The notes below the pieces were generated by a model, which worked only from the letters and a program-made list of their open reading frames with translations, was not told the DNA's origin and searched no databases. A stretch of DNA of 35,649 nt from Candidatus Saccharimonadota bacterium (GTDB lineage: Bacteria > Patescibacteriota > Saccharimonadia > Saccharimonadales > SZUA-47): NCBI GenBank assembly GCA_020428465.1, contig JAGQMY010000021.1, positions 1 through 35,649 of the forward strand. Reading direction: 5' to 3'. Within the stretch, counting starts at the first letter, position 1. Each line of letters begins with the position of its first letter. This document shows, one piece after another, positions 5,530-21,729 of this stretch. A program made the translations under genes and the position numbers.

Positions 5530-6747
5530 TTATCTACCGAGGTTCTGACCGACTAATCCATAGATAGGTAGTAATATGGCGCTGACAATAGTTATCGCGA
5601 CAATACCTAAAACTATCATCAATACCGGCTCAATTATCGTAGATATAGCTTTAATTTGGTTATCTACTTCTTTTTCGTAATAATCAGCGGTTTTCTCCAT
5701 CATTTTCTCAAGAGCACCCGAATCTTCACCGATTTTTAACATCTTCGGTACGAGTTCGAGAAAAGTTTCTTCCGATTGCAAAGATTCAGATAGAGCCTTT
5801 CCACCCTTTACTTTATCTGTGGCGTGATGAATAGCTGTTTCTACGTGCACGTTATCTATTGCTTGCGATGTTATATCTAGCACTTGAATAAGTGGCACTC
5901 CGCTAGACACAAGAGTTGCTCCAGTTCTTGCAAACCGTGCCATATACATTTTTCTGAATAATGTTCCGATAGGCCAGGCGCTTAATTTTAAAGAGTCAAA
6001 TAGTTTTTTACCTTCAACAGTTCTAGCCCATCTACTTGTAAAGAAAACAAACGCGCTAATTATAATTGCAATAACCCACCAGAAATGCACCATAAAATTA
6101 GATACAGCTAATAAAAGTCGGGTAACTAATGGTAGCTTAGCTCCTGGTAGTCCTTTGTAAAGTTCTTGCACCTGAGGCAAAACACTGACAAGCATGAATG
6201 TCACAACTGCAATCATTACAAGAATGACAATAATTGGATAAATCATGGCACCGCGTACTTTAGAAGCCAATTCTGCGTCCTTTTCTTGTTGGTTGGCAAT
6301 TCTCTCTAGTGCTGTATCAAGAGTACCTGAAGCTTCACCGGCAGCTACTAGACTGACAAACACTTGATCAAATGCTCGTGGATACTGGCTTAAACTGTCT
6401 GCAAATGTTTTACCACCTTCTACATCAGTGATTACTTTAGTGAGAATCGCTTGCAAATTTTTACTGTTAGTCTGTTCCATCACAGATCTTAATGCTTGAA
6501 CTAATGGCAGGCCGGCATTAATGAGTGTTGATAATTGTCGCGAAAAAATAACTTTATCTTTAGATTTAATCTTGCCACTTTTAGAAAACCCGAAGAAATT
6601 AGTTTCAGACTCTACGTCCACGCTTATAAGTGCATAACCCTGTTGTTTAATGGTGTTTGCAACGGCTTTAGTGTCGCTAGCCATAATAACACCTTCGATT
6701 TTTTTACCGCTTGCAGGGTCTCTGGCAACATACTTAAAGTTAGGCAT
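5530..6747 (-). CDS. pilC: Type IV pilus inner-membrane platform protein
   Basis: PilC/GspF family platform in the cytoplasmic membrane, on which PilB and PilT act. Two copies of the T2SSF domain are visible, the first around residues 70-190 (FSRQLSTLINAGLPLVQAL) and the second around 270-395 (FARTGATLVSSGVPLIQVL). Hydrophobic segments occur near 170-190, 220-240 and at the C-terminus. At 405 aa the length is standard. The N-terminal domain with NFKYVARDPASGKKIEG is the usual opening. The gene follows pilT by 6 nt and ends the motor operon; the pilin gene downstream has its own promoter. Confidence 0.95.
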   Translation of the reverse strand: MPNFKYVARDPASGKKIEGVIMASDTKAVANTIKQQGYALISVDVESETNFFGFSKSGKIKSKDKVIFSRQLSTLINAGLPLVQALRSVMEQTNSKNLQAILTKVITDVEGGKTFADSLSQYPRAFDQVFVSLVAAGEASGTLDTALERIANQQEKDAELASKVRGAMIYPIIVILVMIAVVTFMLVSVLPQVQELYKGLPGAKLPLVTRLLLAVSNFMVHFWWVIAIIISAFVFFTSRWARTVEGKKLFDSLKLSAWPIGTLFRKMYMARFARTGATLVSSGVPLIQVLDITSQAIDNVHVETAIHHATDKVKGGKALSESLQSEETFLELVPKMLKIGEDSGALEKMMEKTADYYEKEVDNQIKAISTIIEPVLMIVLGIVAITIVSAILLPIYGLVGQNLGR

Positions 6748-12463: not shown

Positions 12464-15400
12464 CTACAAAGCAGGAGGTAATGATAGAATTGCATCGAAT
12501 CTGGAAGTAGCTCCGTTTTCTGATAACAATGCTAAGTAGAGTTCAGGTGAAAAATTGAAACTCTCTGCAATATTGGCAGAGCCAGTAGTTTCCGGTGTGC
12601 CCGCACTTAGAATATTGCCATTTGTACGCATTAATTTTACATATCTAGCGATAAATGCTCCGTTAACTGTAAGTTTGTGATTACATTCAATAGCCGTGAA
12701 ACTTTCATTAGCTGATAAATCATCAACTCCACTACCATCGAATTTAACGCAGGTTTGAATTATGCCTCCGGTTGTACTATCTCTTGGAACCGCAACGTAC
12801 AACCCGTCTACTTGGCTTATATTGTTATCAATGTATATATTTCCATACGCAACAATTTTTACTAGTGGAAGTCTATTAATGTCTACCCCCCAGCTACTAT
12901 TTGGTTGAGTATAAGAAACAGTTTGATCGTAATTATTAGTGTTAATCGATGGACCAATTACAACATCACCATTGACGTAAATTGTTATCCTTTTACTGTT
13001 TTCGATATTCGACGGGACAACATTCATGTTGCCATCGTAATAATATACACCTGTACCCAACGTAGTTAAGTTAACTGGTCCAGTTGGCAAAGCAGAAAGT
13101 TTAGTCTTATCACTCACTTGATTCCAGTAATCACCTGCACAAATCTGTTCGTTGAAACCACCACCATAAGGTAGAGTCGCTAAACTACTGTCAGCAGAGC
13201 CATCATTAGCAAAAGCCAGCTCATCGACCGAGCTACGCACAGTTTGTGCACCAGGCATAACACCGTCGATTAACCCAGTGGCAAATACTGCTAGTTCTGA
13301 TGCTGTGCCCTGGTAACTACTCTGATCTTGAGTTCCCGTTGCGTATCTACCGTAACCTTGCGCGTTGATTGAACTGCTAATCGAACAGTCTCCGTAACCT
13401 CCACCAGCAATAACATCATTACCATAGAACCTAGTATATGGCTCAGATCTTACGCCGAGTGCTCCTTGTGTTACTTGTCCGCAATCACCCCCAACCGACA
13501 AACCACCTGAGATACTTATATCCCAGCTTATGTCATAGTTACCCGTGTCGAGTATTATATGTGGGTTATCTGACCTGATTGTTACCTGCCCACCATCTCC
13601 AGCAAGTGTATACTCATAGTCTTGGTATGTTGAAGTACCGATGTTATACGGTCGTGCGGTACCGCTTGGCAGAACCTTTCCATTGTATACATTGCTACCG
13701 TTTCTTGTGACTTGGTAGTTCGCGCTAGATAGATTGATACTGCTCGTGCTTCCATTCGATACTAGCACGTACGGATAGAATTCTTCTCCTAATAATACCG
13801 ATTGTGTATTAATAATACATACTGGCGCCTCAGGCGCAGGGAGCAAACACTGATTAGGTATAATATCATTTTTGAATCCATAACCAGCCAGATCATTTCT
13901 GGTCGGAGCATGATTAATCCCTAACGGTTGGTCTGTACCAGGCCCAACATTTTTTACAACACCATTGATACTATAAGTCTTGCCTTGATATAGATTATCG
14001 TATACAAGCTCGAAGCCATATATATGGTCTCGAGCGTTCGAACCATATCCCTTACTATCGAGGAAAGCTTCAATTTCTGCTTCTCTATACGGTGACTTGT
14101 CTGTATCAGCGATTACATCACTTGTCCATCCGCCACCGTCTGAGATACTAACAGATATTTGTGGTTTACCATCGTTCAATCCAGCATTATCATCGTATGC
14201 CCATCCCTTGATATAGACTTGCCCTGATATTACTTCACAAGAATCAACATAACCCACAGGGCTAGTTGTACCTGAACAAAGTGGATAATTAGGCAAAATT
14301 TGTAGTGCATTATCACTATCTATGCCAATTATTCGTAATTCATAGTCCACGTTTGCTTCAAAGGTACCCATAGATGCAAACATTGGATCAATACTAGGAT
14401 ACATGGGAGGCCCCCCTGGAATATCCATATATTCATTATTGTTTCCACCGGAGTCAATTTGGCCTGGAATATCAGGATGTGCGTATAGCAAACCTGGCAC
14501 ACCGTTTTGCCAAAACTGCATACCTAATTTATCTAACTTATTAAAAGTAGTTCCGTTTGGCGCAGTAACTGATTGAGCGACTCCATTTCTTAATAATTGA
14601 ACGCTCAAATTTGGTTGTGTTAAATTCGATGTACTCGCATCAATATCGTACAGGCTTATACCTCCACCAGAAATAGTGCATGAACTTCTTATTTTTATTC
14701 GTTGATCGTAGTTAGCCAACAGAGACGCTGGCAAAGGGCCATAAAATGACGTATAGACCCAGCTTGCAATTGAGCCATTGTATAACCTTGGCGACGGACA
14801 AGACATTGGATAGTTTGTTATATCACACCTTTCAGGGAAGTTCGATATACCCACCTGCAATCCACTAGTTATGGGCTCCAGACCGAAAGCATTCAAGTAT
14901 CTAGAGCTATTACCAGCTTCTATCATTTTACCTTGCGCAATGAACTCGTAGACATTATACTGCACGCCGTCTTCAAATATTTGAGACTTATCCAGATCAG
15001 TACTAGCAATCATAGGTGTTGCTGTAAAATTTAAGATCATATCTGTTGTACCTGAACAAACTCCGGGTGTATTCGTACTTACTGTCGGTGAATTCTGTCC
15101 TGTCGTTCTGTTTTTAACATAAAAATCTGTGTTACCAGCCCATGTTTCATTATCCCTTATAGTCCCGTGGCATCCATTAACAATCTTGACGCTAACGTTT
15201 TGCCCTTCTAGACTTTTAGGAACATACACATTCGCAACTGTTGTACGAGCTTTCATTTTACTATTAGCGTTTACCACATTTGAACCTGTAACCTGCACGA
15301 TCGCATATGATCTTGCTTGTCCACTCGGACTTGTATCTGGGAAATAGTTTCCAGCTCCGGTTATCGCCCCAGCCCTTGAACTTAGCAAAATAAAGCTCAC

Positions 15401-15475
15401 AAATATACAGACAATAAAAATAACAAGATTGAGGATAAATCCGTACTGTTGTTCTATGGATTTATTGTGTAACAT
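12464..15475 (-). CDS. Large exported surface protein, possible pilus-associated adhesin
   Basis: A 1003-residue protein with one N-terminal hydrophobic segment (about residues 11-35, FILNLVIFIVCIFVSFILLS) ending near Gly-Ala-Ile-Thr-Gly-Ala, so it is exported and either cleaved or membrane-anchored. The rest is beta-rich and full of Gly, Asn, Ser and Thr with scattered Cys, typical of surface proteins. A middle segment starts with CEVISGQVYIKGWAYDD and looks like an immunoglobulin-like module; the C-terminal 250 residues (ITIYVNGDVVIG, YGNIYIDNNIS) look like a beta-solenoid. I recognise no named family. It lies directly upstream of the pilus operon, which suggests an adhesin or tip protein, but that is context only. 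The frame can begin at GTG 15478 or ATG 15475; I use the ATG. Confidence 0.75.
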   Translation of the reverse strand: MLHNKSIEQQYGFILNLVIFIVCIFVSFILLSSRAGAITGAGNYFPDTSPSGQARSYAIVQVTGSNVVNANSKMKARTTVANVYVPKSLEGQNVSVKIVNGCHGTIRDNETWAGNTDFYVKNRTTGQNSPTVSTNTPGVCSGTTDMILNFTATPMIASTDLDKSQIFEDGVQYNVYEFIAQGKMIEAGNSSRYLNAFGLEPITSGLQVGISNFPERCDITNYPMSCPSPRLYNGSIASWVYTSFYGPLPASLLANYDQRIKIRSSCTISGGGISLYDIDASTSNLTQPNLSVQLLRNGVAQSVTAPNGTTFNKLDKLGMQFWQNGVPGLLYAHPDIPGQIDSGGNNNEYMDIPGGPPMYPSIDPMFASMGTFEANVDYELRIIGIDSDNALQILPNYPLCSGTTSPVGYVDSCEVISGQVYIKGWAYDDNAGLNDGKPQISVSISDGGGWTSDVIADTDKSPYREAEIEAFLDSKGYGSNARDHIYGFELVYDNLYQGKTYSINGVVKNVGPGTDQPLGINHAPTRNDLAGYGFKNDIIPNQCLLPAPEAPVCIINTQSVLLGEEFYPYVLVSNGSTSSINLSSANYQVTRNGSNVYNGKVLPSGTARPYNIGTSTYQDYEYTLAGDGGQVTIRSDNPHIILDTGNYDISWDISISGGLSVGGDCGQVTQGALGVRSEPYTRFYGNDVIAGGGYGDCSISSSINAQGYGRYATGTQDQSSYQGTASELAVFATGLIDGVMPGAQTVRSSVDELAFANDGSADSSLATLPYGGGFNEQICAGDYWNQVSDKTKLSALPTGPVNLTTLGTGVYYYDGNMNVVPSNIENSKRITIYVNGDVVIGPSINTNNYDQTVSYTQPNSSWGVDINRLPLVKIVAYGNIYIDNNISQVDGLYVAVPRDSTTGGIIQTCVKFDGSGVDDLSANESFTAIECNHKLTVNGAFIARYVKLMRTNGNILSAGTPETTGSANIAESFNFSPELYLALLSENGATSRFDAILSLPPAL

Positions 15476-15935
15476 CACTCTCAGCTCCAGACTGACTGTC
15501 CCTGCCGTTGTAAATATTCTCTAGATAATTTTTCCATTGTACTCTTTCATCTTCTAGTGTCAGTTCTTCTGTGAGTTTAGACGACTCACCGTAGCAAGTT
15601 TCCTTGCTTGTAGTATCGTCTAGCTCAATTGCTGTTTGTAAGCATAGTCTATACGCATCAAGTCTAGCTTTGATGTCGTTACTTCCATCTCTAGCATACT
15701 GCAATGATTCGCTTATTTTTAATGTACTGTCGTTACCATTAGCAACTGCTGTCAGGTCGTTGAATTTTGCTGTTTTGTCGTTATCGGCCCTGATTTCTTC
15801 TTCAGTAGGAGCGTATACATATTCTGTTGGCGTGCTCTTCTGGTTTGGTTCTCGCTTCATATATATAGCTGTTACGGTAGTTAAAATTCCTAATGTTAGT
15901 ACTACGCCAATAATTACCAATTGCTTCTTATACAT
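15462..15935 (-). CDS. Single-span membrane protein, unknown function
   Basis: A 157-residue protein with an N-terminal membrane anchor (VIIGVVLTLGILTTVTAIYM), a Pro/Thr linker and a helical, acidic extracytoplasmic domain containing two Cys (RLCLQTAIEL and ETCYGESS) that could pair. I recognise no family. The frame is open upstream to a TTG at 15965, but a TACAAT box ends 7 nt before ATG 15935, so I place the start there. The gene overlaps the large surface-protein gene by 14 nt, so the two are co-expressed and this protein may help export or anchor its large partner (inference). Confidence 0.65.
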   Translation of the reverse strand: MYKKQLVIIGVVLTLGILTTVTAIYMKREPNQKSTPTEYVYAPTEEEIRADNDKTAKFNDLTAVANGNDSTLKISESLQYARDGSNDIKARLDAYRLCLQTAIELDDTTSKETCYGESSKLTEELTLEDERVQWKNYLENIYNGRDSQSGAESDVTQ

Positions 15936-15942
15936 AAGCTTA

Positions 15943-15948
15943 ATTGTA
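15943..15948 (-). promoter_or_regulatory. -10 box of the surface-protein pair
   Basis: TACAAT on the minus strand, ending 7 nt before ATG 15935. No ribosome binding site precedes the ATG, so this fits the leaderless pattern repeated elsewhere in the window. The -35 region is weak. Confidence 0.35.
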
Positions 15949-16026
15949 TCTAAATTTTCAAACAATGCCTAGAGACTTATAGTTAAAGTCATGCTCGAAG
16001 GCCTTAAAAAGTCTAGTTAACTTTAT

Positions 16027-16707
16027 TTATAGCTTATTGCTATCTAAAGTTACGATTTCAAATCTTGTTGATTTATTCGGTTGGACTAAGCTTCCATTTA
16101 CCCCAATTTCAACATATCCGAGCCTGCCGTGCGCATCAGTGATTGAATACTGAGCATAAATCGGTTCTACATCAACTGCTGTCGTCTCTGTTGGCGTAGT
16201 ATCTTGCGGCGCTTGCGTATCCTGTGGTGGTGGAGTTGTTGGAGTAGTGTGAGGTGTTGTTGGTGTTGTTGGCTGTGTTGGTGGTATTGTTGGCTGTGTT
16301 GGTGGTGGTGTTGTTGGTGGATTACCATAACACATACCAACATCTAACTGCGACCCATCATCATAGATGATTGTTTTATAATAATCTGGTATTGGACATG
16401 GATAATCTGCATTCGCAACACCGTTACCCATCATAAACGAGCCCAGTGCTAGACCACTACTCGCAGTTACCTTAACCTTGTTTCTCCGAAGTGCTTCAAC
16501 GGCTTTCTTCAACCAAGACAATAAACCCTTTTCGTTTTTAAATGTATCTGGTAAAAGTTCTGTATCTAATTCACCATTTACTAATAATAGATCAGGAAAT
16601 CCAGAAACAATTCCGTTTTGTCCAGCTTCAAAGTCAGCAAGTTGCTCGGGCGTTAAGCCAGCATCTGGTCCAATTGTTGTAATTATTCTTGTATCCTGAT
16701 TACTCAT
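16027..16707 (-). CDS. Pro/Thr-rich exported protein with an N-terminal extension
   Basis: A 226-residue protein I do not recognise. Residues 1-75 look soluble and acidic (TPEQLADFEAGQNG), then a basic patch (ALRRNKVKV) precedes a mildly hydrophobic segment ending in Ala-Asn-Ala|Asp at 98-101, which resembles a signal peptidase site. The mature part has two Cys and a Pro/Thr/Gln tract (about residues 130-175, TQPTTPTTPHTTPTTPP), then a C-terminal beta domain. The Pro/Thr tract is a typical wall-spanning or O-glycosylated stalk. If the signal is real, the protein has an unusually long pre-signal extension. DNA of the tract holds short direct repeats prone to slippage. A TAGGAT -10 box lies 9 nt upstream and a Crp-type operator about 130 nt upstream. 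Confidence 0.7.
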   Translation of the reverse strand: MSNQDTRIITTIGPDAGLTPEQLADFEAGQNGIVSGFPDLLLVNGELDTELLPDTFKNEKGLLSWLKKAVEALRRNKVKVTASSGLALGSFMMGNGVANADYPCPIPDYYKTIIYDDGSQLDVGMCYGNPPTTPPPTQPTIPPTQPTTPTTPHTTPTTPPPQDTQAPQDTTPTETTAVDVEPIYAQYSITDAHGRLGYVEIGVNGSLVQPNKSTRFEIVTLDSNKL

Positions 16708-16716
16708 ATCAGTTGA

Positions 16717-16725
16717 ATCCTATCA
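16717..16725 (-). promoter_or_regulatory. Extended -10 promoter of the Pro/Thr-rich protein gene
   Basis: TG-A-TAGGAT on the minus strand forms an extended -10 with the hexamer at 16717-16722. It ends 9 nt before ATG 16707 and no ribosome binding site intervenes, so a leaderless or nearly leaderless mRNA is expected. Confidence 0.4.
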
Positions 16726-16836
16726 TTTGCACCCTGTTATGATATGTTTATCTATTAAAGATAAGTAGCTTTACGCTTACTTCACAATAATACCACGTTT
16801 TTGTCATTAACACAATCAATTTGGATTATAACAAAA

Positions 16837-16852
16837 TGTGATATTTATCACA
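16837..16852. promoter_or_regulatory. Crp/Fnr-type operator
   Basis: TGTGATA-TT-TATCACA is a perfect inverted repeat with 7-bp arms and fits TGTGA-N6-TCACA. The Crp/Fnr protein at 24.7 kb has a recognition helix suited to this site. Its centre is 71.5 bp before the expected start point of the + strand ychF relic promoter, a classical class I activator position, and about 130 bp upstream of the divergent surface gene. Confidence 0.65.
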
Positions 16853-16882
16853 CATTTTTACTAAATAACCCTTAATTCTTCT

Positions 16883-16902
16883 AAAATCTAACTTCTATAA
16901 TC
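16883..16902 (+). repeat. Copy of the four-helix-bundle flanking repeat
   Basis: This 20-mer matches the reverse complement of 27066-27085, beside the four-helix-bundle gene, at 19 of 20 positions. It overlaps the -10 region of the ychF relic. It may be the scar of a lost cassette. Confidence 0.6.
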
Positions 16903-16933
16903 TATAATCTATATACATGGGACTTTCAATTGG
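16901..16933 (+). repeat. Relic of the ychF promoter and first codons (direct repeat, left copy)
   Basis: These 33 nt match 21697-21729 at 32 positions. They include TATAAT, the same 8-nt gap, the ATG and the codons for Met-Gly-Leu-Ser-Ile-Gly. After that the frame runs Thr-Arg-Ile-Ala-stop, so it is dead. The true ychF lies 4.8 kb to the right, so this is either the original gene start left behind by an insertion or a duplicated target segment. Confidence 0.8.
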
Positions 16934-16978
16934 TACACGTATTGCGTAAACCAACATCCTTTCGAGCTAACACTGAAA

Positions 16979-17077
16979 ATGCCACCTACTGATAGAGGCG
17001 GTAGAGGCTACTCCGACAAATACGTTGCCGAAGCAGTTAGAGAACTAACATTAACGGAAAGACCCTCTAGTAATTGA
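16979..17077 (+). CDS. Possible 32-codon remnant frame
   Basis: A short open frame (MPPTDRGGRGYSDKYVAEAV and 12 more residues) begins just after the ychF relic and overlaps the 3' end of the HEPN-like gene on the other strand. Its composition is protein-like, with charged and aliphatic residues, but it has no ribosome binding site and no recognised family. It may be the truncated start of a gene cut by the island, or chance. Confidence 0.2.
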   Translation: MPPTDRGGRGYSDKYVAEAVRELTLTERPSSN

Positions 17078-17806
17078 AACTAGATTCTCAATTTCAGCAA
17101 CGGATGTATTCAAAAACTTCTTATCAATATCATAGCTTGGGTCATATCTAGCCAACTCTCGAAGACCAAGTAATTTGTTATGATTTTTTGCATACTTAGA
17201 AGGAATAATTCTGCCAATTTCCTTGTATCGGTTTATCAAAAGCTGTGTACCTTTGTGTGTCTTTACTGGCTTATGGACGTCATCAAGCGGCTGCAAAAAT
17301 AGCCTAGCTTTTGCAACATTTTCTGAAGCGACAAACAGGCTGTTCACTGCTGGTCCCAATCTTGCAGCTTCAATATCAGCTTTCGCAGACTGAAGAAATG
17401 ATTCACCTAATTCTAAAGTTGCTTTTGCCTTTCTGTTTTCATAGATGAAGCTAAAATAGACTTTCCACTCGTCCTTGAAACGCCAAATTGTGATATGACC
17501 AAAATCACTATCTTCTTCAAGTAATTGACCAAACTGAACGTCTTCGACGTCACTTTCACGCAACGCTTGACCTTTTTTGACCGACTTCCCTTTTGCAAGC
17601 TTTGCCTTAAAAATTGCTTTTACTTCTTCGTTAATCCTGATTGTTCTACTGCCATCAATCGCAAACAAAACTTGTACATGCCTCAGCTCGACAGGCTTTG
17701 GCAACTTGCCCTCTTTTTGGCGTCGTTCAATTTCTGGTAACGCCCAATTTTTCATGACTTGGTCAAAGACTGCTTTGCCTAAGTTGATGTCTTGGTCATC
17801 TTGCAT
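17051..17806 (-). CDS. HEPN-like protein, partner of the PD-(D/E)XK nuclease
   Basis: A 251-residue protein in two parts. The N-terminal half (to about residue 125) is mixed alpha/beta and unrecognised. The C-terminal half is helical and resembles HEPN domains: LESAKADIEAARLGPAVNSL-type helices, then LRELARYDPSYD, which resembles the helix-4 segment with Arg and Asp-Tyr in that fold. The canonical R-x4-6-H RNase motif is not evident, so it may be a non-catalytic HEPN. It starts 4 nt after the nuclease gene stops, so the two form an operon. HEPN proteins next to nucleases often belong to defence or toxin systems; that role here is inference. Confidence 0.6.
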   Translation of the reverse strand: MQDDQDINLGKAVFDQVMKNWALPEIERRQKEGKLPKPVELRHVQVLFAIDGSRTIRINEEVKAIFKAKLAKGKSVKKGQALRESDVEDVQFGQLLEEDSDFGHITIWRFKDEWKVYFSFIYENRKAKATLELGESFLQSAKADIEAARLGPAVNSLFVASENVAKARLFLQPLDDVHKPVKTHKGTQLLINRYKEIGRIIPSKYAKNHNKLLGLRELARYDPSYDIDKKFLNTSVAEIENLVSITRGSFR

Positions 17807-17810
17807 CCAG

Positions 17811-19091
17811 CTAACTATCGTCCTTCTTGTGCGGGATGTCTTCGGGATATTCGTATGCGGTGACTGCTTCGATCTTGGGGTCTTTCAAATAACCATGCTT
17901 GTCCATAAACTCAGCAATTTCTGGTGTTATAGCTTCTTTGAGGTCTTCATCCGTTGCGTCCAATAACACCCAATCAAATGAGCAACCATTAGAATTCTTT
18001 ACCATTGCTCGTTCGCTTACCACGGCAATCACCATGTTATTTTGTGGAAACTTCTTCCTAGCAGCTAATGCTGCCAGATATAGCATTGTCTGTCTCGGTC
18101 GCTTATCTCCATCTAAATTACCCATAAAAGCAAATACGTATGTTACACCTTCTAACGGATAGTAACGACGATAGACGAACGTTTCATCATCAGGTCCTTT
18201 AGCTGCTTCAACTGCAGCATCAGCATAGGTTTTGCCAAGAATACGTCGCTCAAACCTATCGTGACTCATCATCTTCGCTAAGAACTTGTCACGGTCTTCT
18301 GGCTTGCTTATATCACCTTCTTGTGGCAAACCCTCACTCTTCTTACGAATAAGCTCATCCCATGCTTTGCCCCAATAATTATCAAGCTCCTGCTTGGTTT
18401 TGTAGCCATCGTCTTCTTCCAATTCAGCCGCCGATCCCTCCGTATCCAAGAATATCTGATGTGCATTAGTGTCTTCCATATTGCCAAAAGTACGATTGTT
18501 ATTTATGTAAACGGCAAGGAGCTCTTCTTCACCGCCACTCAAAACTAAGCCCTTGCCATCGCTGAGGAATCTTTCTTTGTTCTGTAGATAGCGAATAAAA
18601 TCTTTCACTGTATTCAAGTGTTTTGTGGCGTATCGGGTGAACTTTTCAAAAAATATATGGACATTTCCTCTGTCACTGTCGTCGTAAAACGAACCCATTT
18701 CAGCCAACCCACCCTCAATAGCAGCAATTAAGTAGACGTTCTTTATAGTTGTGGCGTCTATAACTTTTGCTTTGCCCGATATATTAGTCAACGTGATTTT
18801 ACCGAGTGTATTAATTTTCCTTTTTGCACCTCGACACTGGCTTATAGCCTTGTTAACGTCCCCTTGCTTAAATACGCCATCCCTACCCAGCTTGATGTTT
18901 TTTATTTGCCAAACGATTGCGGTATCACCAAGCACGACTAGTACATCGCACAGCTCTTTACGGCCTTTGCCAGTGCCAACGTAGGGATTTTTGAAGCAAA
19001 AGTCTTGAAAAAACGCATCCCCACACAGGTCAGCAATAAGTGCCTCGGCAGCTGATCCCTTCTCATTGAATACATTTTTTGATTTACCCAT
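17811..19091 (-). CDS. Predicted PD-(D/E)XK (Mrr-like) nuclease
   Basis: A 426-residue protein. The N-terminal 70 residues look like a PD-(D/E)XK nuclease: Glu17 in GSAAEALI, Asp49 in RKELCDVLVV and Gln62-x-Lys64 in VWQIKN, the QxK form used by Mrr-type enzymes that cut modified or foreign DNA. The remaining 350 residues are unrecognised, with a charged middle section and a C-terminal alpha/beta region. It starts 6 nt after a TATAAT box, so the mRNA is probably leaderless, and it is followed after 4 nt by the HEPN-like gene. A restriction or abortive-infection function is plausible but not proven. The assignment is moderate because no family name could be matched. Confidence 0.65.
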   Translation of the reverse strand: MGKSKNVFNEKGSAAEALIADLCGDAFFQDFCFKNPYVGTGKGRKELCDVLVVLGDTAIVWQIKNIKLGRDGVFKQGDVNKAISQCRGAKRKINTLGKITLTNISGKAKVIDATTIKNVYLIAAIEGGLAEMGSFYDDSDRGNVHIFFEKFTRYATKHLNTVKDFIRYLQNKERFLSDGKGLVLSGGEEELLAVYINNNRTFGNMEDTNAHQIFLDTEGSAAELEEDDGYKTKQELDNYWGKAWDELIRKKSEGLPQEGDISKPEDRDKFLAKMMSHDRFERRILGKTYADAAVEAAKGPDDETFVYRRYYPLEGVTYVFAFMGNLDGDKRPRQTMLYLAALAARKKFPQNNMVIAVVSERAMVKNSNGCSFDWVLLDATDEDLKEAITPEIAEFMDKHGYLKDPKIEAVTAYEYPEDIPHKKDDS

Positions 19092-19097
19092 AGCACA

Positions 19098-19103
19098 ATT
19101 ATA
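19098..19103 (-). promoter_or_regulatory. -10 box of the nuclease/HEPN operon
   Basis: TATAAT on the minus strand, ending 6 nt before ATG 19091 with no ribosome binding site. This indicates leaderless transcription of the two-gene operon. The -35 is poor. Confidence 0.45.
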
Positions 19104-19161
19104 TCTCTGTTGGCTTGCTTACTCCAGTGATATTATTGCGTAATATGCTTATGCTTTAATT

Positions 19162-20847
19162 CTATGCAACCTTGCGATCCTGAAAATCTTTTGAGGCTTC
19201 ATCTATTGAGGCAATATATGCTTCTAGATTGCCACCTAGCGCTAAGGATATGACTCGTGATGTAGCCATCCTTCGAAGCGTTTCTTCACGACCTAACCCT
19301 ACATGTTCCGTGCTGCCTATTACAGCCTTGTCTTTAAGGACACGCACCTTAGCAAGCCGCTCATTGAACCTGTCCGCAAGTGCAGAGAGGTCGTCAAAGC
19401 CGTACTCTGTCACCTTCTCTCTCAGTCCGTCGCTTAGCTCATTTAGGGCTGATTCAAGTGATTCGGGGGTAACCGTTGGTAGCCCGCTTTCATCAAGTCT
19501 AGTTGCCGAAACAACAGTCATTGCCAACACATCGGGAGCTTTGCACTGCTCTGCATCATCACCAAACAAGCTAGCCGTAACTGCTTCACCCCTAATCATT
19601 GCGAAACCGTCGTTAATCTTGAATTTACCGTTCTCATCGACTTCACTATTTTCATACATACGCTGAACTTGTAAATCGGCTTCCTTGTCAAAACCTTCTG
19701 CACGCACTACTCTTATAACTTCACCATATCTAGATACTTCGTAACCTTCAATAGCAAGTGCTTCGGCACCATTCGTTAGACCATCAACGGTGCCCGCCAG
19801 AACCCACGCTACTGCTTGTTCGGTATTCCTAAAACCACCTCGTAACTCAACCCTACCATCCAATACCCTCAAAGTCTTTCTTGTAGGTCCTACATTCAAG
19901 TTACCGCTTCCACCTTTAGCGAACATATAGTCATACTTGCTTGCCATTTCGGCATCAATGTAAATGCCTTCTTGTTTTGCCTCCATTATCCCGCTTGTAA
20001 TATCAACGGTGTCATCCGCTCTCGACTCTGAATTTCCGATAAGCTCATTGTATGAACCGTCTTGCTGTCTTTCATAGACGCTTAGGTTGACGTGCTCCAT
20101 TTGAGCACCCGTGGTCACTATTGCACCTAATTCAGCACCAATCTCTCCCATTCTCTGTTTTATAATTGCAGTTCTTCGTAGTGCTTCAGATGGGTTACAA
20201 GGCGTTAGCCTTATCTCAGAAACACCAGCATTGTCGTAATAACCGCTTTGCAGGGTTCCTCTCCCGAACCTCCACTCTATCCACCCGTTTTCATCTGAAA
20301 AAGCATCTATGTCTTCAAGGCTAGCATCCTCAGAAATTTCAGGTATTCGCAGCTTAGGTTTCGAAAACTCCTCATAAATTAAAAAGTTGACGATTTCTGC
20401 TGGTCCTAGCTGATCAACCTGTTCAAGCCATCGCTCTTGAAAGTCTGCTTCTGCTTTATCTTCTGGCTTCAACCTTTGTAAAAAACCTTTAGCATAGCTT
20501 CTAAACTCCCCCACTAGATCGGTATAGTCATGATCATCACTATGAATCGTGTCTGGATTAAGAACTAACCCGACGTTATAATCTCTTAAGCTGTCGCTAA
20601 TTTTCTCGTTGTCTACAACATCACTTCTAAAATCACTAGGACGCTGTAAGCCGAACTCAATTTCAATGCCAACCCTAAACTCTAAATGTCTTTTTCCTTT
20701 ATAGGTGTCAATCCCCTCTTGAGCCGCTTGCTCTAACTCAGCAATAGCAAATTGATTTTGGGCTAACTGCTCAGCGTTATCCTGAAGAGGAGAGTTTGCT
20801 TGATCTGCAATTTGCGGTTGGGTTTCGTAAAGTGTTGTTTCTGACAT
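19162..20847 (-). CDS. Predicted amidoligase / glutamine-synthetase-fold protein
   Basis: A 561-residue protein with signatures of the carboxylate-amine ligase (glutamine synthetase-like) fold. Counting from ATG 20847, a metal-binding strand FRVGIEIEFGL is at about 58-68, a second acidic strand VSEIRLTPCNPSEAL near 209-223, a HVNLSVY strand at 252-258 (compare HxHxS of GS), and RVELRGGFRNTEQAVAW at 332-348 followed by LAGTVDGLTNGA, which closely mirrors the RxExR..N..L.AGL.G segment of GS. About 200 residues of helical C-terminal domain follow and are unrecognised. Such enzymes join a carboxylate to an amine using ATP; the substrate here is unknown. The frame opens at ATG 20883, but that codon overlaps a TATAAT box, so ATG 20847 is preferred. 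The gene is 70 bp upstream of the nuclease operon. Confidence 0.7.
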   Translation of the reverse strand: MSETTLYETQPQIADQANSPLQDNAEQLAQNQFAIAELEQAAQEGIDTYKGKRHLEFRVGIEIEFGLQRPSDFRSDVVDNEKISDSLRDYNVGLVLNPDTIHSDDHDYTDLVGEFRSYAKGFLQRLKPEDKAEADFQERWLEQVDQLGPAEIVNFLIYEEFSKPKLRIPEISEDASLEDIDAFSDENGWIEWRFGRGTLQSGYYDNAGVSEIRLTPCNPSEALRRTAIIKQRMGEIGAELGAIVTTGAQMEHVNLSVYERQQDGSYNELIGNSESRADDTVDITSGIMEAKQEGIYIDAEMASKYDYMFAKGGSGNLNVGPTRKTLRVLDGRVELRGGFRNTEQAVAWVLAGTVDGLTNGAEALAIEGYEVSRYGEVIRVVRAEGFDKEADLQVQRMYENSEVDENGKFKINDGFAMIRGEAVTASLFGDDAEQCKAPDVLAMTVVSATRLDESGLPTVTPESLESALNELSDGLREKVTEYGFDDLSALADRFNERLAKVRVLKDKAVIGSTEHVGLGREETLRRMATSRVISLALGGNLEAYIASIDEASKDFQDRKVA

Positions 20848-20874
20848 ATTTTTGTTTTTACTATTAACATATTT

Positions 20875-20880
20875 ATTATA
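20875..20880 (-). promoter_or_regulatory. -10 box of the amidoligase-like gene
   Basis: TATAAT on the minus strand. Transcription would begin about 20 nt before ATG 20847. The box overlaps the alternative ATG at 20883, which would be excluded from the mRNA. Confidence 0.4.
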
Positions 20881-20910
20881 CATTATTTTGCTATATTTGT
20901 CTAGTTGTAT

Positions 20911-20964
20911 TATCAGTTAAGGGTCGGACCCTTAACCCCTTAGAAAATTACATATTTTCGAAAT
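20911..20964 (-). repeat. REP-like palindromic repeat, copy 1
   Basis: The core at 20916-20936 is a perfect hairpin: arms GTTAAGGGTC and GACCCTTAAC around one central base. The flank CC-C-TTAGAAAATTAC and a T-rich tail continue the identity with copy 2 at 21631-21683. Both copies have the same orientation and bracket the RAYT transposase gene, the classic layout of REP sequences and their transposase. Confidence 0.85.
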
Positions 20965-20971
20965 TCCCCCG

Positions 20972-21586
20972 TTAATTATCTGCTAATACGTATTTCAGCT
21001 CACTCAACATTTTCTTATTTTCTTCGTAATCCGCGACGAATATTCCGTACTGTCTTCTGTTGCTATGTAGCTCTAGCACCTTTTCAGACTGCAACCACTC
21101 TGGCTCTGTTCCCTTGCGAATATATTTAAAGCTTGAAAACTTATAGTTTCTCCAGCTCCTGGGATTAAGGTGTATATACCTAGAAACATGCAATAGGTAT
21201 GAATCCTTATTAACGAGCGATGCTTTAAACCGAGATCCAAAAACAGGTCCGGTTCTACCATATTTGTTATTAAAATACGCCGTATACGATACCATAATGC
21301 TTTTCATAAGCTCCGACAAAATACCCTGATCCCGCTGATAAAAAAGCAAATGAAAATGATTATCCATCAGACAGTACGTCAAAAGTTCAATTTTGTTCCG
21401 AAAGTGCGGATACGGATAACCATTCCTAGTAACAACCTCTCTTTTAGAGAGATGTCGTGAAAGCAAATATAGAAAATAGTCCTTGTCTGATTCGTCTATA
21501 AATATTATGTCTTTATTAGCACCACGCGCATAAACATGATAATAGCTTTCAGGTAAATCATGACGAATCACATTTCTTGAAGGCAT
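20972..21586 (-). CDS. REP-associated tyrosine transposase (RAYT, Y1_Tnp family)
   Basis: Single-strand HUH-type transposase related to IS200/IS605 TnpA. The metal-binding motif is HFH in YCLMDNHFHLLFY and the likely catalytic Tyr lies in the helix VSYTAYFNNKYGR. The family features SYYHVYARG near the N-terminus and VFGSRFKASLV followed by YIHLNPR are present. At 204 aa it matches RAYT proteins. The frame opens at ATG 21595, but a TATAGT box at 21597-21602 sits right before that codon; ATG 21586, 10 nt downstream of the box, gives the expected MPSRNVIRHDLPES start. Palindromic repeats lie 8 bp beyond its stop and 45 bp before its start. RAYTs are often single-copy domesticated enzymes that move REP repeats; here both copies still flank the gene. 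Confidence 0.9.
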   Translation of the reverse strand: MPSRNVIRHDLPESYYHVYARGANKDIIFIDESDKDYFLYLLSRHLSKREVVTRNGYPYPHFRNKIELLTYCLMDNHFHLLFYQRDQGILSELMKSIMVSYTAYFNNKYGRTGPVFGSRFKASLVNKDSYLLHVSRYIHLNPRSWRNYKFSSFKYIRKGTEPEWLQSEKVLELHSNRRQYGIFVADYEENKKMLSELKYVLADN

Positions 21587-21596
21587 AACAACCATA

Positions 21597-21602
21597 ACTA
21601 TA
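21597..21602 (-). promoter_or_regulatory. -10 box of the RAYT gene
   Basis: TATAGT on the minus strand, 10 nt before ATG 21586. Low confidence because the -35 is weak. Confidence 0.3.
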
Positions 21603-21630
21603 AACCCATAATTAAAACTTGCAAAATCCT

Positions 21631-21683
21631 TATCTGTTAAGGGTCGGACCCTTAACTCCTCAGAAAATTACTAGTTTTGAAAT
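21631..21683 (-). repeat. REP-like palindromic repeat, copy 2
   Basis: The core 21636-21656 is identical to the core of copy 1 (10-bp arms, one-base centre) and the flanks are about 80 percent identical. On the minus strand the hairpin foot is preceded by GAGGAG, which resembles the GGAG/GTAG tetranucleotide recognised by RAYTs in other bacteria. Its outer end supplies the -35 box of ychF. Confidence 0.85.
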
Positions 21684-21704
21684 AACGGGTTAGAATTCTA
21701 TAAT
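21677..21704 (+). promoter_or_regulatory. ychF promoter, partly inside the REP-like repeat
   Basis: A TTGAAA -35 at 21677-21682 and a TATAAT -10 at 21699-21704 are 16 nt apart. The -10 ends 8 nt before ATG 21713, so the ychF mRNA is probably leaderless. The -35 lies in the tail of REP copy 2, while the -10 is part of the 33-nt repeat shared with the relic at 16.9 kb. Confidence 0.65.
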
Positions 21705-21729
21705 CTATATTCATGGGACTTTCAATTGG
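21697..21729 (+). repeat. ychF promoter/start direct repeat, right copy
   Basis: Right-hand partner of the 33-nt repeat at 16901-16933 (32 of 33 identical). It spans the -10 box and the first codons of the intact ychF, and marks the right edge of the accessory island. Confidence 0.8.

Follow-up and report, generated by a model that had tools for sequence, protein, structure and literature searches.

Genomic context of P0001

The protein that we designate P0001 is encoded on the minus strand of a 35,649-nucleotide stretch of a Candidatus Saccharimonadota genome (contig JAGQMY010000021.1; hereafter the window), in the region upstream of ychF. Its gene is one of four ORFs on an inserted element, the others encoding a HEPN-domain protein, a NERD-like protein, and a Y1 transposase (Table 1). 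The element is bounded by direct repeats of 33 bp that are identical at 32 of 33 positions, and the right copy covers the -10 box, the ATG, and the first coding bases of ychF. With up to three mismatches allowed, the 25-base core of the repeat is found at these two places only in the genome.

Table 1. Features of the inserted element and of P0001. Coordinates are positions in the window, and residue numbers refer to the 573-residue version of P0001.
Feature	Position	Strand	Remarks
Inserted element	16901..21696	.	4,796 bp from repeat start to repeat start; empty-site comparison with G007
Left direct repeat	16901..16933	+	Displaced ychF -10/start region, att-like
HEPN-domain protein	17051..17806	-	251 residues; PF05168, 22.5 bits (cutoff 22)
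NERD-like/phrog_18195-like protein	17811..19091	-	426 residues; distant homologs in three other genomes
P0001, amidoligase-like orphan protein	19162..20847, open to 20883	-	Likely 561 residues; 573 if longer
P0001 C-terminal region, residues 401-573	19165..19683	-	Without family match
N-TEQAVAWV-LAGTVDGL, residues 353-369	19777-19827	-	
GRVELR, residues 343-348	19840-19857	-	GxxExR, predicted nucleotide/metal strand; best local hhalign hit when the whole protein is used
EHVNLS, residues 263-268	20080-20097	-	HxN in place of the Amidoligase_2 HxH
WIEWRFGRGTL...SEIRLTP, residues 201-228	20200..20283	-	Aligns to Amidoligase_2 W...DGSL...E...P
Insertion, ~113-120 residues (about 83-195)	20299..20652	-	After the GxExE strand; absent from Amidoligase_2
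GIEIEF, residues 72-77	20653-20670	-	GxExE; strand predicted to bind metal; pairs locally with Amidoligase_2 GIELELE in hhalign
Palindrome-bearing repeats, 49 nt	20910..20958 and 21630-21678	.	Flank the Y1 gene
Y1 transposase	20972..21595	-	IS200-like, REP-associated
Right direct repeat	21697..21729	+	Spans the ychF start codon (21713)

The corresponding empty site is found in a relative, G007, whose sequence aligns continuously to the left flank joined directly to ychF (score 212). The left flank has its counterpart upstream of ychF in G007 (score 84, against at most 53 for shuffles); the right end of the element has none there (score 36, against at most 50 for shuffles). The direct repeats and the empty site demonstrate that P0001 is carried by an integrated element. 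A mobile context had been part of the original prediction, and it is borne out here by two features that the prediction did not mention. In ychF loci taken from 19 relatives (the start was not located in one, and several contigs end soon upstream), no displaced repeat copy of at least 26 nt was present in 18, and G006 and G014 each contain one 20-nt near-match. Approximately 18 to 20 nt located just upstream of ychF in G006 recur ~950 bases away (L030:5331-5371 and 6305-6324), and the two copies enclose a single 287-residue ORF without a Pfam match. This site possibly holds a second, small insertion.

The element has no integrase of its own, as neither a tyrosine nor a serine recombinase is found among its four ORFs. 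A XerC/D-like recombinase is encoded outside the element (positions 21-989), and we speculate that it could serve the element in trans. With two mismatches allowed, the genome holds no further copies of the 49-nt repeats, each of which contains a 21-base near-perfect palindrome. We take them to be REP-like ends of a lone REP-associated transposase. In pneumococci, a 26-bp site upstream of ychF is used by prophages and satellite prophages (PMC8637289, PMC10383233), an arrangement like that observed here, with insertion at the ychF 5′ end and repeats (a 26-bp att in the streptococcal case). Unlike the streptococcal elements, which are phages or phage satellites and for which an int gene is reported, the element in the window is 4.8 kb long, lacks an integrase, and has a 33-bp repeat that enters the coding region. 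The streptococcal use of the ychF site is an independent precedent.

At the right junction, a -35-like TTGAAA (21677) is supplied by the end of the element, and a TATAAT lies 8 bases before the ychF ATG. The ychF gene may be transcribed from this hybrid promoter, possibly as a leaderless transcript. The wider region that separates ychF from the type IV pilus operon (12464-21713) differs in gene content in each of four relatives (L028, L032, L033, and L034), where the cargo includes a PIG-L deacetylase, a DUF1295 protein, and an M14 peptidase.

Reading frame and motifs of P0001

The minus-strand ORF is open over 19162-20883, which corresponds to 573 residues, and position 20847, given originally as the end of the gene, is Met13 of this version. 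A promoter-like site (TAGACA-17-TATAAT) ends at 20875 and overlaps the first codons of the longer version, so the methionine at 20847 is the likelier start. In its own frame (frame 1), P0001 has a codon-usage score of 0.282 bits per codon, compared with 0.271 for ychF, a gene that is itself part of the reference set. The remaining frames score negatively, as does an antisense ORF (-0.038), and on these grounds we regard P0001 as a real gene. The ORF and every motif quoted in the original prediction are present, the motifs at the positions given in Table 1. Beyond these motifs, the protein continues for about 200 residues.

Genes adjoining P0001

The two neighbors of P0001 had been described as a PD-(D/E)XK nuclease and a HEPN-like gene. 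The nuclease assignment is weak (NERD match, E = 0.052, 14.5 bits against a cutoff of 22.1), and the HEPN match scores just above its cutoff. The genes for P0001, the NERD-like protein, and the HEPN protein lie on one strand within the element with gaps of only 70 and 4 bases, an arrangement that would suit a conflict system in which P0001 is one subunit of three and that is compatible with P0001 being a ligase. The original prediction had suggested a part in a conflict system or a protein-tagging enzyme. Against such a system, homologs of the neighbors keep other company. The NERD-like protein has homologs in 3 of 285 other genomes, with neighbors that differ, and the product of the HEPN gene has one in 1 of 378 genomes (G261), and no P0001-like gene lies near any of them. 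A fixed three-gene system is therefore unsupported. In addition, PADLOC matched none of the three element proteins to its models of known anti-phage defence systems. We consider a three-gene system unlikely. The G261 homolog (L119:8681-10399) is 41-42% identical, mostly in the N-terminal region, and adjoins a zeta-toxin-like kinase; a Pfam scan of this protein itself gave no HEPN match. Viral contigs scanned with the NERD-like and HEPN proteins yielded no relatives.

A bolder version would place P0001 in a novel family of glutamine synthetase (GS)-fold ligases that is mobile in an ultra-small bacterial lineage. P0001 would then attach something to a protein or nucleotide and act as the effector or guard arm of a NERD-nuclease/HEPN conflict island, the island having been mobilized in trans and inserted at the ychF start. 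We view this proposal as a long shot.

Searches for P0001 families and relatives

No accepted family was found for P0001 in Pfam, NCBIfam, PADLOC, or PHROGs. The Amidoligase_2 HMM (PF12224), which matches all 10 of 10 phage Amidoligase_2 proteins, gave nothing against P0001 at E values up to 10 and has no match in any of 21 genomes, the source genome included. By HMM, P0001 is outside Amidoligase_2. A phmmer search of the PDB at E values up to 10 returned no GS-fold family, the only match being an antibody chain (E = 1.6, or 0.26 with a sub-segment of P0001). Nor did searches of open-licence literature for amidoligases and for Saccharibacteria islands turn up a description of a P0001-like family.

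The only Pfam line for P0001 is SsgA (PF04686), which falls on residues 196-241 and so overlaps the putative Amidoligase_2-like segment at 201-228. This match is better than any other in that region (24.2 bits and E = 3.3e-5 with the core; 22.8 bits with the whole protein), as would be expected were P0001 related to SsgA. It nonetheless stays below the curated cutoff of 25, covers model positions 21-64 of 98 only, and is not extended by the flanking sequence, and a relationship to SsgA appears very improbable.

In three overlapping samples of genomes, P0001 was found in its own genome only (60 related genomes) or in its own genome plus seven weak matches (379 genomes of the phylum and, separately, 392 of the order), with no usable homolog. 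We judged the 14 weak matches to be due to chance: residue-level alignments of four of the seven from the phylum and three of the seven from the order show no motif-to-motif correspondence, and the other seven were dismissed on score and position alone. The best of them, in G687 (E = 1.4e-4), lies inside a long helicase-like ORF. The homolog searches also returned a phmmer match at L034_13212-14132 (E = 0.0089). Searches of phages and plasmids by tblastn revealed no relative, and neither did scans of a species-genome collection and of viral contigs with exact 8-residue patterns, which we estimate to be insensitive below roughly 70% identity. The orphan status of P0001 thus holds for the sampled genomes of the phylum and is weak elsewhere, as the pattern scans detect close relatives only.

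Motif order relative to Amidoligase_2

To place the motifs of P0001, we used Amidoligase_2 proteins gathered from phi32_84 of phage phiEco32 (PF12224, E = 3.7e-8) and its phage relatives (301 records, of which 11 regions were examined). In an alignment of ten of these proteins, the GxExE motif, a W, D-x-S, an E, HxH, an R, a C, a Y, and GxxExR are invariant. P0001 shares with members of this family such as phi32_84 and LUZ24 gp18 the succession GxExE, W...GSL...E...P, HV(H/N), KY, N, and GxxExR. Unlike them, it has no HMM match, contains an insertion of 113-120 residues and an extra C-terminal region, and has Asn (HVN) in place of the second His of HxH, H95 and H97 both being invariant in the phage alignment.

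When 521 ORFs of 150 residues or more were screened for the strict pattern GxExE - HV(H/N) - GxxExR, in that order, it was found in P0001 and at all 12 of the 12 phage Amidoligase_2 loci and nowhere else, giving 13 matches. None of a further 665 ORFs of 200 residues or more, drawn from loci of the same phylum and including 400 kb of background sequence taken from two genomes, has the pattern. Shuffling P0001 50,000 times never reproduced the strict pattern and gave a looser form 61 times. These counts favor P0001, as the patterns were composed with knowledge of both P0001 and the phage proteins; the HV[HN] element, for example, allows the Asn that P0001 contains. When residues 196-380 alone were aligned with the phage proteins in MAFFT, a Y, an N, G-x-x-E-x-R, and one H were invariant. 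A MAFFT alignment of the whole core was discarded, as the P0001 insertion caused WIEWR to be misaligned to GSIEFR.

The same observations bear on whether P0001 is an unrelated, fast-evolving orphan cargo protein whose short motifs look amidoligase-like by chance. That explanation is consistent with the lack of any homolog and of any HMM or PDB match to a GS-fold family at E values up to 10, and with the recovery of the loose pattern from shuffled sequence. It also fits the frequency of the first motif on its own: the DNA pattern for GIEIEF occurs at 48 places (47 besides P0001) in 44 of 379 genomes, as against 12 for a backward control counted by eye, none of the 31 open frames read at these places has the other two motifs, and none of the 47 is a relative. 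Chance accounts less well for the correct order of the three motifs together with W..GTL..E..P, Y, and N, or for the absence of the strict pattern from the shuffles and the 665 ORFs. We regard coincidence as somewhat unlikely. By motif order, P0001 would be expected to work like a member of Amidoligase_2.

Profile alignment and structure prediction

Alignment of the single P0001 sequence to the phage profile by hhalign gave a weak match (E = 0.042, or 0.029 with the core). The local matches fall on the catalytic motifs: the best for the whole protein pairs GRVELR with GSIEFR, and the core pairs GIEIEFG with GIELELE and then GRVELR, both colinear. The score of the core exceeds those of all 200 shuffles of it. 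With residues 83-195 removed, query positions 1-227 align globally to profile positions 53-270 (E = 0.0052), which brings into register GxExE, W..GTL, P, a helix, KY, N, and GxxExR; the HVN segment is offset by a few columns in the alignments. This score was reached by 0 of 300 shuffles and by 0 of 223 slices of real ORFs, for a deletion that was picked by eye. Equal freedom was then granted, through the same 27 deletions, to P0001 and to 52 controls that alternated between real slices and shuffles. Two controls, both shuffles, scored at least as high as P0001 (15.8 and 15.1, compared with 14.9). Each is a partial overlap (profile columns 1-140 and 248-372), whereas P0001 spans 53-270. Because two controls match its score, we consider the profile evidence to be moderate. 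The case for likeness to amidoligases is carried by motif order and register.

In two single-sequence AlphaFold runs, P0001 received pLDDT values of 34.4 and 34.9. With homologs lacking and the input limited to one sequence, these models are unusable. The order of strands and helices in both agrees with a GS fold, and the insertion after GxExE is mostly helical (pLDDT 34-35), although we do not rely on this agreement.

Proposed function of P0001

On balance, we think that P0001 is probably a highly divergent GS-fold carboxylate-amine ligase, amidoligase-like, carried as cargo of the 4.8-kb integrase-less element at the ychF 5′ end. Of the amidoligase-like, GS-fold assignment made in the original prediction, the motif order and a moderate profile signal hold up, whereas no HMM passes and 2 of 52 of the fairest controls score equally. 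The prediction had also linked R-E-R...N...AG..DG to the glutamine synthetase/GCS2 superfamily, to which this stretch presumably bears a resemblance; unlike members of that superfamily, P0001 is linked to it by neither a Pfam nor a PDB match at E values up to 10.

The fold, catalysis, substrate, and benefit that we infer for P0001 would be as follows. Mg-ATP would be bound between the GIEIEF strand (E74 and E76), E223, H264, and the GRVELR strand (E346 and R348). The γ-phosphate would be transferred onto a substrate carboxylate, and an amine would then attack the acyl-phosphate to form an amide. Substrate choice would lie with the helical insertion (about 83-195) and with the last 170-200 residues of the protein. 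The likeliest substrate would be the end of a peptide or protein, or a small conjugate of benefit to the element or its host. In several of the phage regions examined, Amidoligase_2 genes adjoin a COOH.NH2 ligase gene and an ATP-grasp or amidotransferase gene. P0001 differs in this respect, as none of these partners is encoded on the element.

A protein of this fold could also have given up ligation, serving as a binding protein or as a hydrolase that runs the reaction backwards, in the manner of Dop, which runs the reaction in reverse on Pup. The replacement of HxH by HxN, the large insertion, and a divergence past the reach of HMMs would all be in keeping with such a loss. The E-x-E and E-x-R residues are retained, however, and some glutamine synthetases have HxN as well, and we judge a lost ligase activity to be decidedly unlikely.

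If P0001 is the ligase that we propose, the amidoligase/glutamine synthetase-fold ligases would include a form that escapes HMMs and that has a large insertion and an additional C-terminal region, and such a divergent ligase would gain a defined mobile vehicle. The ychF start is a site common to streptococcal prophages and an integrase-less element. The 4.8-kb element inserted there represents one route by which a reduced genome can acquire orphan genes.
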